From Acidobacteriaceae bacterium (GTDB lineage: Bacteria > Acidobacteriota > Terriglobia > Terriglobales > Acidobacteriaceae), in assembly GCA_903970395.1 (NCBI GenBank), contig CAJCIM010000026.1:1-53654 (forward strand): a DNA stretch of 53,654 nt, read 5' to 3'. A model generated the notes under the pieces. That model made no database searches. It was not told the origin of the DNA and saw only the letters and a program-made list of their open reading frames with translations. The translations under genes were made by a program, and so were the position numbers. Of the stretch, positions 980 to 6,055 are shown piece after piece (position 1 is the stretch's first letter; each line of letters begins with the position of its first letter).

Positions 980-1429
980 ATGCCCACCGCAGCCGTCACC
1001 TCTCCTTTACTCGCCAAGAACTTCCGCGTCGAGATCGACGGCATCGCCGCCACAACAACCTTCACCGAGGTCTCTGGCCTCTCAGCGGTGATCGACGTCG
1101 TCGACTACAGAACCGGCGGCTCGCTTGAAAACGCCGCGCAGAAACTACCCGGCCTGGGCAGCTTTCCCAACATCACGTTGAAGCGCGGCTTTATCTCAGA
1201 CATCTCTCTCTGGACCTGGATCAACAACAACCTCGCCGGCACGCTCGACCGCCGCAGCATCGCCATCACCCTGCTGGACCAGGCAGAAAATCCCGTCTGG
1301 ACATGGAAGCTGTCCAACGCCTTGCCCTGCCGCTGGTCCGGCCCGGACCTCGCAGCCGACTCCAGCGCAGTCGCCATCGAAACTCTCGAAATCTGCTACG
1401 AAAGCCTTCAGTCAACCCTGGCCACATAG
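980..1429 (+). CDS. Phage T4 gp19-like tail tube protein, orphan
   Basis: 149 residues with no signal peptide. The sequence pattern (NFRVEIDG near residue 14, a TEVSGLS motif near 29, then LKRGF and a C-terminal beta-rich part ending ETLEICYE) fits the gp19/conserved phage-tail-region family that forms the inner tube of contractile tails and extracellular injection systems. Size matches the family. GGAGA at 970-974 serves as ribosome binding site. No sheath, baseplate, spike or AAA+ CIS gene lies in the 50 kb downstream; a cluster could lie upstream of base 1. It may be an injection-system remnant, a distant cluster member or a domesticated protein; function here is unknown. Confidence 0.8.
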   Translation: MPTAAVTSPLLAKNFRVEIDGIAATTTFTEVSGLSAVIDVVDYRTGGSLENAAQKLPGLGSFPNITLKRGFISDISLWTWINNNLAGTLDRRSIAITLLDQAENPVWTWKLSNALPCRWSGPDLAADSSAVAIETLEICYESLQSTLAT

Positions 1430-1688: not shown

Positions 1689-2396
1689 ATGAAAAAGGCA
1701 CTCGTTATTGTTTCAACATTGGTCTTCTCCCAGATCTGCTTTGCAGCTCCTGCCGACAAAAAGTTGCCGCCTACTGCTTCTTCCCTACATGTCGATGGGA
1801 AGACACAACTCCCGGAAGGCTCACTCTCCGCGGGCGACTACACAATCCGTATCGTCGACCATCTTGCGGACCGCGTGATCGTTGAAGTCAGCGGTGCAGA
1901 CGGCAGCGACCAGAAGTTTCTTGGCGTGCCGACGCGTAACATAGCGGCCTCATCGAAGCCTGGACCTGTCCTGATCAAAGGGGCGCACGGCTCATCTGCT
2001 CTACGTGGCTTCGTATTCCCAAAAGACAACGTGATCGAATTTGTCTATCCCAAAGATGACGCTGTAGCGCTCGCGAAGGCAAATGGGGTGATGGTCCTCG
2101 CAGTCGATCCGGCGTCTGATGGGCTCGCGACGAAGGACGCTCGTTTGAGCGATGAGGACCGCAAGATCGTAACTCTGTGGATGCTCACTCCAACCTCCGT
2201 GGGGCCCGGCATCGAGGCGGCACGCTACCACTCCGATGCGGCTCAGCCAATCCAACTGGCAGTTGCGCGGAAACCGGCTGTCAGCCGCCTGCCGAAGACG
2301 GCGAGTAAACTCCCTCTGTTCTTGTTGTTCGCCCTTGCCTCGCTGGCCGCGGCAATCGGCTTGACGCTGCGCCGTGTTCGCGCGGTGACCATCTGA
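1689..2396 (+). CDS. Secreted protein with C-terminal LPKTA sorting signal (sortase substrate)
   Basis: 235 residues. The frame is open further upstream, but the ATG at 1689 has AGGTG about 6 bases ahead and gives a clean signal peptide (MKKALVIV...CFAAPA). The mature part is an unrecognised beta-rich domain. The C-terminus is a textbook cell-wall-sorting signal: LPKTA at residues 201-205, a hydrophobic stretch (about 208-226) and a basic tail RRVR. LPxTA is the motif type associated with class D sortases. The next gene, 5 bases downstream, is a sortase, so this is very probably its dedicated substrate. Without a sortase the tail would simply be a C-terminal membrane anchor. The exact role of the protein is unknown. 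Confidence 0.85.
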   Translation: MKKALVIVSTLVFSQICFAAPADKKLPPTASSLHVDGKTQLPEGSLSAGDYTIRIVDHLADRVIVEVSGADGSDQKFLGVPTRNIAASSKPGPVLIKGAHGSSALRGFVFPKDNVIEFVYPKDDAVALAKANGVMVLAVDPASDGLATKDARLSDEDRKIVTLWMLTPTSVGPGIEAARYHSDAAQPIQLAVARKPAVSRLPKTASKLPLFLLFALASLAAAIGLTLRRVRAVTI

Positions 2397-2401
2397 AGCG
2401 G

Positions 2402-2983
2402 TTGTTCCAGCGCGTCGGCCCGCTGGAGATAGGGGCTTGGGGCCTGTGCCTTTTGTGCGGCGGCGCTTTGCTGGCGGTGAAGGTGAATGCCTCTTCCGCC
2501 TGCAGAGCAGCCTCCCATGTGGAGGCCCTCGGGGTCGCCGTTGGTCTTTCTCCCACAGCCGACCTGCCGCACGCGGGCGCTGTCATGGCCCGGCTGGAGA
2601 TCCCCAGCATCGGGCTGAAAGTGCCGATCGTCGAAGGCTTCGATCCAGCGGCCTTGCGCGAGGGTGTTGGACATATCGCGGGAACAGCTCTGCCTGGCGG
2701 CCTCGGCAACATGGCATTGGCCGGACATCGCGATACCTTCCTTCGACCGCTGCGAAACATCCGCCGCGGCATGAAGATGTCGGTCTTCACCGCCAATGGC
2801 CGCTACGACTACACAGTAGACTCCACGGCCATCGTAAAGCCGGAGGACGTGACCGTGCTCGCCATCCATGACACGCCAGAGATGACACTGATCACGTGCT
2901 ACCCGTTCAACTACGTGGGTTCGGCGCCAAATCGTTTCATCGTGCGCGCCCATCTGGCATCGGTCGTGCCTGCGCAGCCCTGA
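2402..2983 (+). CDS. Sortase, class D-like
   Basis: 193 residues from a TTG start 5 bases after the substrate's stop; GAAGCGG just ahead is a weak Shine-Dalgarno, so the start is provisional. An N-terminal hydrophobic segment (about 10-27) gives a type II membrane anchor. The sortase core follows: RLEIPSIGLKVPI (64-76), LAGHRDTF with catalytic His109, TLITCYPF with catalytic Cys166, and Arg178 in NRFIVRA. All three catalytic residues are present. Sortases cut LPxT-type signals and transfer the protein to an amino nucleophile. Placement with the LPKTA protein immediately upstream suggests one enzyme for one substrate. Sortases are common in Gram-positives and uncommon in diderms. Confidence 0.93.
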   Translation: MFQRVGPLEIGAWGLCLLCGGALLAVKVNASSACRAASHVEALGVAVGLSPTADLPHAGAVMARLEIPSIGLKVPIVEGFDPAALREGVGHIAGTALPGGLGNMALAGHRDTFLRPLRNIRRGMKMSVFTANGRYDYTVDSTAIVKPEDVTVLAIHDTPEMTLITCYPFNYVGSAPNRFIVRAHLASVVPAQP

Positions 2984-2986
2984 CTT

Positions 2987-3616
2987 CTAAAGATCGTTCA
3001 GAACGACCAGCGTCCTGGGATGATCGATGCAAGCGATGGCCTGCAGAAGATCCTCCGACGACGTCTCCCGCGCGCGGGCAACAACCACCGTTATCCCGAC
3101 GGCCTTCGCCAGAGCTGCGATCTGCGGCGTGGACTCCACGGCGGGGCCGTCGAGAATCGTCCAATCGTAAGAGGTTCGTGCCTCGAAGAGGAACTGATCA
3201 AAGGTAGAACTTGGATAGAGTGCATCTGGGGAATACTGTGTCCCGCCCGCAAGAGCGACCTTCAGGCCATCGACCCGTTCGCAAACAACAGAATCGAGTG
3301 GATGCCCTAACGCAATTGCGTCCCCCACGCCGAAGGAGATGAGCGAGGCACCAAAGATGTCAGCAAAAACCGGCCGCTCAAACGAGAGCTCCGCAAGCAG
3401 CACAGGAATCTTGCGCGCATGAAACGCATAGGCGAGGTTGACCGCGGTGACAGTTTTGCCGTCCCCGGCACCAACACTGGTGACCAGCACCTGGTGCGAG
3501 GAGTCTTCAATCGCAAGCAGCCGGTCAACCATCTCCGCATACCGTTCTCCCTCAGAAGAACCCGGAGCAGAGCCCTGCGTGGGGAAGTTCTCAAGATATC
3601 GTTGGGAAGGACTCAC
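2987..3616 (-). CDS. CpsD/CapB-like P-loop protein, degenerate tyrosine-kinase domain
   Basis: 209 residues from a GTG start overlapping the stop of the preceding gene (GTGA), with GGGGGAGAG as a strong ribosome site. Walker A SVGAGDGKT (47-55) and Walker B TILDGP (153-158) are intact. Walker A', normally hydrophobic-DxD-x-R in bacterial tyrosine kinases, reads LLAELSFERP (73-82) with the aspartates gone, and the protein ends at VVLNDL without the C-terminal tyrosine cluster. It is coupled to a Wzz-like membrane protein, the usual partner of such kinases in exopolysaccharide export. It may be a regulatory ATPase rather than an active kinase (inference). Confidence 0.82.
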   Translation of the reverse strand: MSPSQRYLENFPTQGSAPGSSEGERYAEMVDRLLAIEDSSHQVLVTSVGAGDGKTVTAVNLAYAFHARKIPVLLAELSFERPVFADIFGASLISFGVGDAIALGHPLDSVVCERVDGLKVALAGGTQYSPDALYPSSTFDQFLFEARTSYDWTILDGPAVESTPQIAALAKAVGITVVVARARETSSEDLLQAIACIDHPRTLVVLNDL

Positions 3617-4410
3617 CTCTCCCCCATGTGGGGCACTGTACCCAGGAACTTGACTGTCTGCGGAAGCAGATCGCGCAGCACGGCCTCGTCTCGAATGCGG
3701 GTGTCGGAGCCACGTGAAACTGCAAACGCGAGCCCTGCCGCGATGACTCCAAGGATCAGGCTCGCACTAACGATGGCAGGGACGCTGAGGGTTTCGTGCC
3801 GGGAATGCCGGGCGCCTGCAAGTTCCTTGGCGCGCTCCAGCTGTCTGAGCTGTTGGAGATCGATCTGTGTCTGCGCCTCGTTGAGCGAGAGTTGACGGTC
3901 CGTCTCTGCAACCTGGGTCCCCGTATCGGTAGTCGCGGCGGGAGCCACCGGCTGCACGCGACGTTCGGGCAGTGGCATCTCAGCGATCTGCGATTGGAGA
4001 CTATCAATCTGTTTACGCGTGTCCGTGGTCTCCGGGCTGCCTTCTGGATACTGCCTTTCAAGAGCTAACAGGTAAATCAGTTTGCTGACGAGTTCATGGC
4101 GTGTTCGCTCCGCCGGCGTCAGGACAATCCTTCGCTCTGGCGGAGCAACAGCGGTCAGTTGCGCACGCTTCGCCTGAAGCTCCTGGCGCTGCTGATTGTC
4201 AATTGCGATCTTTTTACTCAACGACTCGGTGGCAATGTCATTCACACTCCGTTGTGAAGCAGCAACATCACCTGCACCGGCTGTCGCGGATCGCGTCGTG
4301 AAGAACCTGATAGCAAAGAGCGCGGCCAAAGAAACGAGCACCACCGTCAACGCGGTCAGAGCGGGACGCTTCCACCGCGAACGCTTTCGAAAGATGATGT
4401 GAGTTGTCAT
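3613..4410 (-). CDS. Polysaccharide chain-length determinant (Wzz/GNVR-like) membrane protein
   Basis: About 265 residues from the ATG at 4410; the frame is open to 4548, but the extra residues look non-coding and no clear Shine-Dalgarno is seen. Layout: N-terminal transmembrane segment (LTALTVVLVSLAALFAI), a periplasmic part rich in Glu, Gln and Arg and likely coiled coil, a second transmembrane segment (VPAIVSASLILGVIAAGL), and a C-terminal cytoplasmic end (RDLLPQTVKFLGTVP) like the pattern that precedes the kinase domain in Wzc-type proteins. Family members set the length of exported polysaccharide. It is translationally coupled to the following kinase-like gene. The periplasmic domain is short for the family. 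Confidence 0.72.
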   Translation of the reverse strand: MTTHIIFRKRSRWKRPALTALTVVLVSLAALFAIRFFTTRSATAGAGDVAASQRSVNDIATESLSKKIAIDNQQRQELQAKRAQLTAVAPPERRIVLTPAERTRHELVSKLIYLLALERQYPEGSPETTDTRKQIDSLQSQIAEMPLPERRVQPVAPAATTDTGTQVAETDRQLSLNEAQTQIDLQQLRQLERAKELAGARHSRHETLSVPAIVSASLILGVIAAGLAFAVSRGSDTRIRDEAVLRDLLPQTVKFLGTVPHMGER

Positions 4411-4883
4411 GATTGCGTCTGCCGCGAACTTCGTTGGCGCATACGGCCCTCCCGGACAAATCCTCACCTTGATGGTATGGGTTGAGGACAAAGCGGATGC
4501 GCCATATCGCCTATGAACGACACAGAAGATTCGCGATAGCATGACCACTGTTCGTCATCGAAGCCCCCAGCTTTACATCATCCCTCACCACTGTCGCCCC
4601 ACCAACCTGGCGGACAGAACTCCGGCACCGCTCGCCTGCTACCCGCTTCTCAGCCCCTGCGGCCTGCCAAGGTTATCCGCAGGGGCTGGTCCTGCCCCCA
4701 TATCGTCATACTGGCTGTGCTGCGGAGGAACCCACACAACCACTGGCGTCGACTTCACAACTCTGTTCGTCGATCCCCGATATCTCCATAGTGCCGAGGC
4801 GCGAAAGATCGTTACAAAAAATCCTCGGGGTCTTCGTTGACGGCCGGACTCTTCTCCGCCCCGGCCCAGCGCCACCGCAGCAC
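4411..4883. other. Intergenic region, 473 bases
   Basis: No convincing gene on either strand. It should hold the promoter of the minus-strand Wzz-like operon and the end of the gtrA operon. The only clear structure is the hairpin at 4651-4688. Confidence 0.6.
4651..4688 (-). terminator. Strong hairpin, possible terminator of the gtrA operon
   Basis: Perfect 12-base inverted repeat CAGCCCCTGCGG / CCGCAGGGGCTG with a 14-base loop, about 195 bases past the gtrA-like stop. There is no T-run on either side, so it may act Rho-dependently or not as a terminator. Confidence 0.45.
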
Positions 4884-5372
4884 TTATTTTGACAACCAAA
4901 CCGACCAGCTGCCCGGGAACCAGCCACAACGGTTACGAGCCTGACGCTTTTCCGCTGCGGATCTTAGCGCCGGAATAGGGGGAGAGTGTGCCGCAAACGC
5001 CCACCGCTCTCCCAGCCCAAAGTTCACCACCGAGCAGCACGCAATCGCCACCGCATTTGCTGCGATCACCGGCAACCGCGCCCCACCGACCAGCAGCCGC
5101 ATCAGCACCACATTCCCCACCAACGACACCGCCCCATTCGCCAGGTGAAATCGCACCATCTGCCTCCAACGCGATCCGCCATAGCGCCCGCGCCACGTAT
5201 AGCGCACATGCCACACAAAGTTATGTAGCAACGCCAGTTCCACCGCAGTCGCAGTCACCATCAACACATGCCCACCGCACACGCGACTCATCACTGCCAA
5301 CGACCCCAGCTGCACAACCATCCCCATCGCACCAACCACATTGAACCGCCACCACCGCAGCAGAATATTCAT
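4884..5372 (-). CDS. GtrA-like membrane protein
   Basis: 162 residues from the ATG at 5372, which overlaps the previous stop (ATGA) and has GAGAGGAG about 8 bases ahead; the frame runs on upstream but only as shadow of the neighbour. Four hydrophobic segments and the family pattern FNVVGAMGMVVQL, HNFVWHVRYTW, FHLANGAVSLVGNVVLM and NFGLGERWAF match GtrA (about 120-150 residues), small proteins thought to flip polyprenyl-phosphate-linked sugars. Last gene of a three-gene operon with a phosphatidyltransferase, so the substrate may be a lipid-linked group. The tail past RWAF is longer than usual and low in conservation. Confidence 0.82.
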   Translation of the reverse strand: MNILLRWWRFNVVGAMGMVVQLGSLAVMSRVCGGHVLMVTATAVELALLHNFVWHVRYTWRGRYGGSRWRQMVRFHLANGAVSLVGNVVLMRLLVGGARLPVIAANAVAIACCSVVNFGLGERWAFAAHSPPIPALRSAAEKRQARNRCGWFPGSWSVWLSK

Positions 5373-6055
5373 GGCAGCGGCTCCTCTCGATACAGCTGCA
5401 CCGTATGCCGCAACGCAACAACAATCGCCATCGCGCACATCCCAACCGACGCAATCACGCCACCCACATCGAACAGCAGCCACCGGTGCCCGAACACCGT
5501 CGCATAGAAACTCCGCAGCAGCGCAACGTTCCCAACCGCCAGCAGAATCCGTATCTCAGTCGGCCCAAACATCCCCTGCGACATCTCAAATCTCCCCAGC
5601 GTGTACGTCGCCAGATAACTCTCGCTCGCCAGCACTAGGAACGCGACCAGCATCGCCATCGCAACCTGCCAGTGCAGCACACCGGAGAACGCCATCCCCG
5701 TCATCATCGCCACCGTCCCCAGCACATCCACCATATGATCCACATAAAACCCATAACGCGGCCGCTGCTGTCCACGCACACGAGCCAGCGTGCCATCCAG
5801 ACTGTCGCCCAGCCAGTTCAACGCGAGACACACAGTTACTCCCAGCAACGCACAGCGCTCATACCGCGACCAAGAATAGCAAGCGCCCGCGCCAACCTGC
5901 GCCATTAGCCCAAGCAGCGTCAACTGGTCGGACGTAACCCAACGCGGCGCACGCTCTGCCAACCAGCACAACACGCGTCTCTCCGCAGCCGCCGTCAACG
6001 ACACGTTCACCCGCGTTGCCGTCTTGAACTCCTCCCGCTTCACCATCACCGTCAT
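5369..6055 (-). CDS. CDP-alcohol phosphatidyltransferase family membrane enzyme
   Basis: 228 residues. The signature D-x2-DG-x2-AR-x8/9-G-x3-D-x3-D is seen as GDSLDGTLAR followed by G-FYVDHMVD, with every acidic catalytic residue present. About six transmembrane helices surround it. The family swaps CMP of a CDP-alcohol for another alcohol in phospholipid synthesis; which alcohol cannot be told. It overlaps both neighbours by 4 bases, so the three proteins are made together. Sequence is more diverged than housekeeping PgsA or PssA, suggesting a specialised lipid. Confidence 0.88.
   Translation of the reverse strand: MTVMVKREEFKTATRVNVSLTAAAERRVLCWLAERAPRWVTSDQLTLLGLMAQVGAGACYSWSRYERCALLGVTVCLALNWLGDSLDGTLARVRGQQRPRYGFYVDHMVDVLGTVAMMTGMAFSGVLHWQVAMAMLVAFLVLASESYLATYTLGRFEMSQGMFGPTEIRILLAVGNVALLRSFYATVFGHRWLLFDVGGVIASVGMCAMAIVVALRHTVQLYREEPLP

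Follow-up and report, generated by a model that had tools for sequence, protein, structure and literature searches.

Sortases are usually regarded as Gram-positive enzymes that anchor proteins to the cell wall. Parts of the literature describe them as unknown in diderms, or as having an unknown role there. The best comparison for the pair analysed here is provided by class D sortases, whose systems are described from Gram-positive bacteria and have been tentatively connected with sporulation (PMC4498605). It was reported that the B. anthracis class D sortase cleaves LPNTA and that the proteins sorted there are attached to m-DAP (PMC3208642), and that the gene for C. perfringens SrtD is clustered with a gene for an LPQTGS protein (PMC4498605). 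Class GN sortases and their targets (TIGR03784/TIGR03788) also form sortase-target pairs, and do so in diderms. In class GN, VIT and vWA domains are part of the target. PEP-CTERM/exosortase systems, which are linked to EPS, likewise combine a C-terminal motif, a helix and a basic tail with a Cys/Arg/His enzyme, and exosortases are described as not homologous to sortases (PMC1569441). A further system, LPxTATN, is defined by profiles for its signal (NF058670) and its sortase (NF058671). The parts, namely the sortase, the sorting signal and class GN pairs in diderms, are already known. We found no description of acidobacterial sortase-substrate pairs in the titles and abstract openings of the openly licensed literature; the Ca. 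Solibacter genome paper has a table entry 'Sortase 6' (PMC3174227). Here we analysed such a pair in a stretch of 53,654 bases (the window), which is contig C26 of a 3.82 Mb genome of 214 contigs.

A class-D-like sortase and its adjacent substrate gene

The sortase gene (2402..2983, + strand, TTG start) encodes 193 aa and matches PF04203 at 104.4 bits (cut-off 26.6, E 4.5e-30). The protein passes NF058671, the LPxTATN-specific class D profile (145.2 bits, cut-off 140), and falls below the class D subfamily profile NF033746 (136.5 bits, cut-off 165) and the class GN profile TIGR03784 (81.6 bits, cut-off 158.25). Because the NF033746 cut-off is not reached, we call the enzyme only class-D-like. 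Class D enzymes (B. anthracis SrtC, C. perfringens SrtD) are its closest relatives by sequence, with the best match to 2ln7 (E 1.5e-21), which we take to be a class D enzyme. They are also the closest by fold: the predicted structure (pLDDT 89.2) matched solved sortases, the best being 4d70, C. perfringens sortase D (E 1e-13). The model has an N-terminal helix at residues 7-42, hydrophobic at about 8-28. The predicted catalytic residues His109 (2726-2728), Cys166 (2897-2899) and Arg178 (2933-2935, all + strand) are all present, as the initial annotation had read them.

The substrate gene (1689..2396, + strand) lies 5 bases upstream, so that the adjacency claimed from the sequence holds. It encodes 235 aa, comprising a signal peptide, a beta-rich ectodomain (about residues 30-180), a linker and a C-terminal sorting signal. 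The predicted signal peptide covers residues 1-19 (1689..1745, + strand), with a hydrophobic peak at 4-22 and cleavage after ...QICFA judged by eye. The tail was also as first described: the LPKTA motif at residues 201-205 (2289..2303, + strand), with predicted cleavage between Thr204 and Ala205, is followed by a membrane helix (about 208-227, hydropathy peak 2.22) and basic RRVR (228-231), together at 2310..2381 on the + strand. LPxT, hydrophobic helix and basic end, the elements of an LPXTG-type sorting signal, are thus all found in the sequence. By profile the tail lies just above the cut-off of Pfam Gram_pos_anchor (PF00746; 20.7 bits, cut-off 20) and below that of NCBIfam LPXTG_anchor (TIGR01167; 13.5 bits, cut-off 15.9). 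These general profiles miss most such tails, matching 19/60 and 5/60 aligned substrates, respectively. NF058670 matches 5/60 (best 2e-5) and gave no match to the window substrate at E 0.01.

An AlphaFold2 model of the substrate, built on 60 aligned substrates with the window protein first, had a mean pLDDT of 83.5, with strands at 30-179, a low-confidence linker and a helix at 208-234. When the ectodomain was compared with the PDB by Foldseek, no fold reached E 0.001; a limit of E 10 let in 542 matches, the best at 0.17. The substrate profile matched no PDB chain sequence at E 1. DUF2911 matched 8 of the 60 aligned substrates weakly (best 2e-4) and did not match the window protein.

The pair resembles class D systems in that their substrates, LPNTA and LPQTGS, have Ala or Gly after Thr, as in the acidobacterial motif. 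Unlike them, it occurs in a probable diderm, its substrate domain has no curated family, and its motif has a second Pro five residues after Thr (LPxTASxLP). The LPxTATN system is matched on one side only: the sortase passes NF058671, whereas the substrate, whose motif reads LPKTASK, has no NF058670 match. The class GN pair differs in that the window sortase lies far below the TIGR03784 cut-off.

Envelope and sorting systems of the window genome

LptD (PF04453), the one outer-membrane marker examined, was found in the window genome at 30.6 bits against a cut-off of 22.4, and therefore this soil bacterium likely has an outer membrane. The genome holds two PF04203 genes. The second sortase (contig C205) is followed by a protein that ends in LPEAGTNLP and a hydrophobic segment and has no Pfam match at 1e-4. 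We searched the genome with a tail profile, A1, made from 30 tails adjoining sortases of family genomes, with both window-genome tails among its rows. All 87 candidates were scored: the LPEAGT tail (E 8.4e-12) and the LPKTA tail (E 2.7e-11) were followed by a next match at E 0.19. Because A1 finds just two tails, each adjoining a sortase, each sortase seemingly has one substrate with such a tail. The alternative of many substrates per sortase was ruled out for this genome on the same result. Together, PF04203, the tail profile and LptD support the proposal that a probable diderm carries a dedicated sortase next to a single LPxTA substrate.

In addition to the sortases there are two exosortases (PF09721), at C82:31374-32174 (E 6.0e-37) and C81:21070-21864 (E 4.2e-34), so that this genome has two kinds of C-terminal sorting that are not related to each other.

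Distribution in Acidobacteriota

The initial annotation regarded Gram-negative sortases as rare. Within Acidobacteriota this does not apply: PF04203 was found in 73/200 genomes of the family (98 matches listed) and, among phylum genomes at least 85% complete, in 59/297, representing 44/168 genera. For the family we chose the regions round 60 of the 97 non-window matches, which with the window gives 61 sortases. His and Cys are conserved in 61/61 of them and Arg in 60/61, the exception, L067, being gapped there; close relatives lacking Cys or Arg, proposed earlier as evidence against the pairing, were therefore not encountered. For 54/61 there is a tail match on the sortase strand, no more than 3 kb away. 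The window sortase falls in a clade with L089, L093, L094 and L062 (support 99/86), where a related substrate and sortase occur in the same gene order. Their motifs, with that of the window, are LPKTAS, LPHTAS or LPHTAG, and their substrates are 41-46% identical to the window's.

Named genomes were scanned by sortase similarity alone. Of 568 relatives the best 80 were retained, each from a lineage named as acidobacterial. Those that match best come from Granulicella, Terriglobus, Silvibacterium and Acidipila, and on this ground we place the window in Acidobacteriaceae. Named isolates with pairs include Terriglobus roseus DSM 18391 (L120) and Silvibacterium bohemicum S15 (L102). A tailed partner was found within 4 kb in 72/80 named loci, and 71 have the ectodomain of the window substrate. 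The partner lies upstream on the same strand in 70/72, the exceptions being L153 (opposite strand) and L156 (downstream). Of the eight loci without a partner, six have less than 1.5 kb of upstream sequence, and L147 and L170, with more than 1.5 kb, are misses. The named loci and the loci of the genome samples overlap in places (by our reading, L102 with L093 and L103 with L062), and their counts were not summed.

A vWA protein is encoded near 46/80 named sortases, and in 42 of the loci its gene separates that of the sortase from that of the substrate; the commonest locus type in the phylum carries it as an extra gene. Many acidobacterial loci differ from class GN in giving vWA a gene of its own, placed between the other two. 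We scanned four of these vWA proteins, and each passes TIGR03436. The window locus is without this gene. Elsewhere in the window genome, TIGR03436, the profile of a large family of acidobacterial vWA proteins, gave 19 matches (15 above cut-off) on 16 contigs, none of them one of the two sortase contigs.

L053, L088 and L092, all from family genomes, form a separate sortase lineage (support 100/100), and each adjoins an open frame of 720-757 aa with a hydrophobic C-terminal segment. L053 passes TIGR03784 at 173 bits. Class GN sortases seem to be present in Acidobacteriota too.

Motif types and sortase lineage

Tails of the named loci were selected as [LM]Px[TS][ASG], which imposes Pro at position 2 and leaves free Thr over Ser at position 4 and Pro at position 9. 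The 71 tails came from 72 ectodomain frames, the frame of L147 having none. Position 1 is L or M and position 4 is T in 71/71; position 5 is A in 62, G in 5 and S in 4; S occupies position 6 in 62/71 and P position 9 in 63/71.

Among 54 family loci, position 4 is T in 40 and another residue in 14, two of which (L042, L078) do not have clean LPx motifs. We placed this state on the sortase tree for 54 of the 61 loci, omitting those without a tail match (L038, L053, L076, L079, L086, L088, L092). Three changes were counted, as against a mean of 12.7 and a minimum of 9 in 500 shuffles. This comparison of sequences indicates that motif type tracks sortase lineage, and few changes are expected of any linked pair that is inherited jointly. 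The non-Thr tails adjoining sortases (LPSAGS, LPGASS, LPEGGS, LPEAGT and similar) group on the sortase tree; they were read at L040, L044, L046, L049, L054, L057, L068, L072, L080 and L035-L037.

Dependence of the tail on a sortase

We compared the occurrence of tail and sortase, with tail cut-offs of E 0.01 for the family and E 0.001 for the phylum. The tail was found in 38/297 phylum genomes, every one of which belongs to the 59 that bear a sortase; A1 had rows from only three of the 38 (G000, G050, G168) and none from the other 35. No tail was found at E 0.001 in the 238 sortase-less phylum genomes, an absence that is slightly weaker than it appears, since in larger genomes just 26 first-look candidates (39 for the family) were scored. 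A further 21/59 sortase-bearing phylum genomes have no tail recognised by the profile. The initial annotation had asked whether the two genes always co-occur: a tail goes with a sortase in 38 of 38 cases, whereas the reverse does not hold.

The 200 family genomes were divided into 70 with both, 3 with only a sortase (G028, G071, G178), 5 with only a tail (G041, G058, G073, G096, G105) and 122 with neither, a table that is partly circular because the rows of A1 come from tails adjoining family sortases. Four of the tail-only genomes were read. The sortase-less G041, G073 and G096 keep the helix, and their LPxT has decayed to PRKTA, NPQNA and LRDAG. G058 has an intact LPKTAS, and its gene stops 219 bases short of the contig end. 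The tail of G105 is weak (E 0.007). L199, in sortase-less G110, also keeps the hydrophobic segment and has lost LPxTA.

Short homologues of the ectodomain without a tail (open frames of 160-204 residues) were read in seven cases. Six are in genomes without a sortase match (G037, G051 twice, G077, G161, G110) and the seventh is in G021, which bears a sortase. G071, too, has a sortase and no tail match, and a tail-less homologue (L209). Homologues without LPxTA where the sortase is absent had been named as a finding that would speak against the pair. They do occur, as tail-less forms and as forms with a decayed motif, and they fit the pairing and do not count against it. The comparison shows an intact tail to depend on a sortase, while G071 and the 21/59 phylum genomes with a sortase and no recognised tail speak against a strict rule.

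Neighbouring genes

The pair converges on two genes. The first (2987..3616, - strand) encodes an ATPase resembling polysaccharide (BY-type) tyrosine autokinases (TIGR03018 E 7.4e-17, TIGR01007 E 1.5e-16, both under the curated cut-off). The second (3613..4548, - strand) encodes a membrane protein in the position of Wzz, a label given from position and from hydrophobic ends seen by eye; Pfam gave nothing meaningful for it, and NCBIfam gave no match at all. Beyond it, at 4884-6055 (- strand), are a GtrA-like membrane protein and a CDP-alcohol phosphatidyltransferase. On the other side, between a sigma-54 regulator and the pair, a gene at 980-1429 (+ strand) encodes a T4 gp19-like tail-tube protein (PF06841 E 2.8e-40; TIGR02241 above cut-off), and a Pfam scan of 17 window ORFs showed no further gene for such a tail.

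A polysaccharide setting had been suggested from the convergent genes. Similar genes were observed near other pairs: a convergent BY-kinase 40 bases away at L102, three adjoining glycosyltransferase-family genes at L101, a glycosyltransferase one gene away at L062, a polysaccharide deacetylase upstream at L100, and an adjoining GDP-mannose dehydratase and epimerase at L093. No polysaccharide-synthesis family was found among the scanned neighbours of L094 (four) and L140 (three). A constant partnership with the Wzz and kinase genes was ruled out: a phmmer search with this gene pair at E 1e-4, covering 2.5 kb around each of the 80 sortases, gave one kinase-type match, at L102 alone. The neighbours of L089, read by sequence as kinase and Wzz, were not counted, as Pfam gave nothing at 1e-6. 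The suggestion is partly supported: the kinase-like gene of the window resembles autokinases below the curated cut-offs, the Wzz-position gene has no meaningful family match, and the setting is recurrent near window-type pairs, not constant.

A proposed mechanism and its alternatives

We consider it probable, from the sequence and by analogy with class D, that a dedicated class-D-like sortase cuts its substrate between Thr204 and Ala205 and moves the ectodomain to an amine of the envelope, the likeliest being m-DAP of a murein precursor. After export via Sec, the substrate would stay in the inner membrane, held there by its C-terminal helix. The neighbouring sortase would sit in the inner membrane with its catalytic domain (Cys166, His109, Arg178) in the periplasm, where it would recognise LPKTAS, cut Thr204-Ala205 and, as expected from its family, hold the ectodomain as a thioester on Cys166. 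The ectodomain would then be passed to an amine, most likely the m-DAP side chain of lipid II. Acidobacterial murein would be expected to contain m-DAP. This acceptor is favoured because B. anthracis class D sorting ends on m-DAP (PMC3208642), and another amine could serve instead. The outcome would be a beta-rich domain held covalently on thin periplasmic murein. The second sortase, with its own LPEAGT substrate, is parallel to it in the same genome. Counting against the proposal are the 21/59 sortase-bearing phylum genomes in which the profile recognises no tail, the partnerless loci L147 and L170, and G071.

The main rival to an m-DAP acceptor is a polysaccharide setting, in which the sortase would attach its substrate to a non-murein target (exopolysaccharide, LPS or pili) and the domain would be displayed outside the cell with polysaccharide. 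The convergent BY-kinase-like and Wzz-position genes of the window argue for it, as do the BY-kinase at L102, the glycosyltransferases at L101 and L062 and the GDP-mannose dehydratase and epimerase at L093. However, L094 and L140 lack such families among their scanned neighbours, the extra gene of the commonest phylum locus type is a vWA protein, and the genome already has two exosortases, sorters described as EPS-associated (PMC1569441). We therefore regard a non-murein target as rather improbable, although it is the most serious competitor to attachment to murein.

It is also conceivable that proteolysis is the main activity of the sortase: the membrane tail would be cut off and hydrolysis would set free a soluble protein, periplasmic or secreted. 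The seven tail-less short homologues suggest that the domain is tolerated in a free soluble form. An enzyme with a transpeptidase-type fold and all of Cys, His and Arg would, however, hardly be kept if short soluble forms sufficed, and we judge this reading unlikely. Least probable by far is that the two genes are chance neighbours, in which case the substrate would be a common membrane protein with a C-terminal anchor and the sortase would serve something else. Such a reading has against it the sortase in every tail-bearing phylum genome (38/38), the decay of the motif in three family genomes that lack a sortase, the adjacency in 72/80 named loci, and the finding that the genome has just two such tails, each adjoining a sortase.

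Significance

Taken together, attachment to murein being our preferred reading, these pairs may represent a widespread and apparently undescribed covalent anchoring machinery of Acidobacteriota, in which a class-D-like sortase acts with one family of LPxTASxLP ectodomains, often with a vWA protein as a third gene. In these diderms it would add protein domains to a thin murein, and it would have radiated into several parallel pairs within single genomes, including pairs whose motifs lack the usual Thr (LPEAGT, LPRSSS, LPSAGS). We hold this broader proposal tentatively, with slightly more doubt than belief. The sortase-substrate pairs recur, patchily, across this phylum of soil bacteria, each sortase clearly matched to its substrate, and named isolates are included among them. 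These recurrent pairs make the attachment target of a diderm sortase directly testable.
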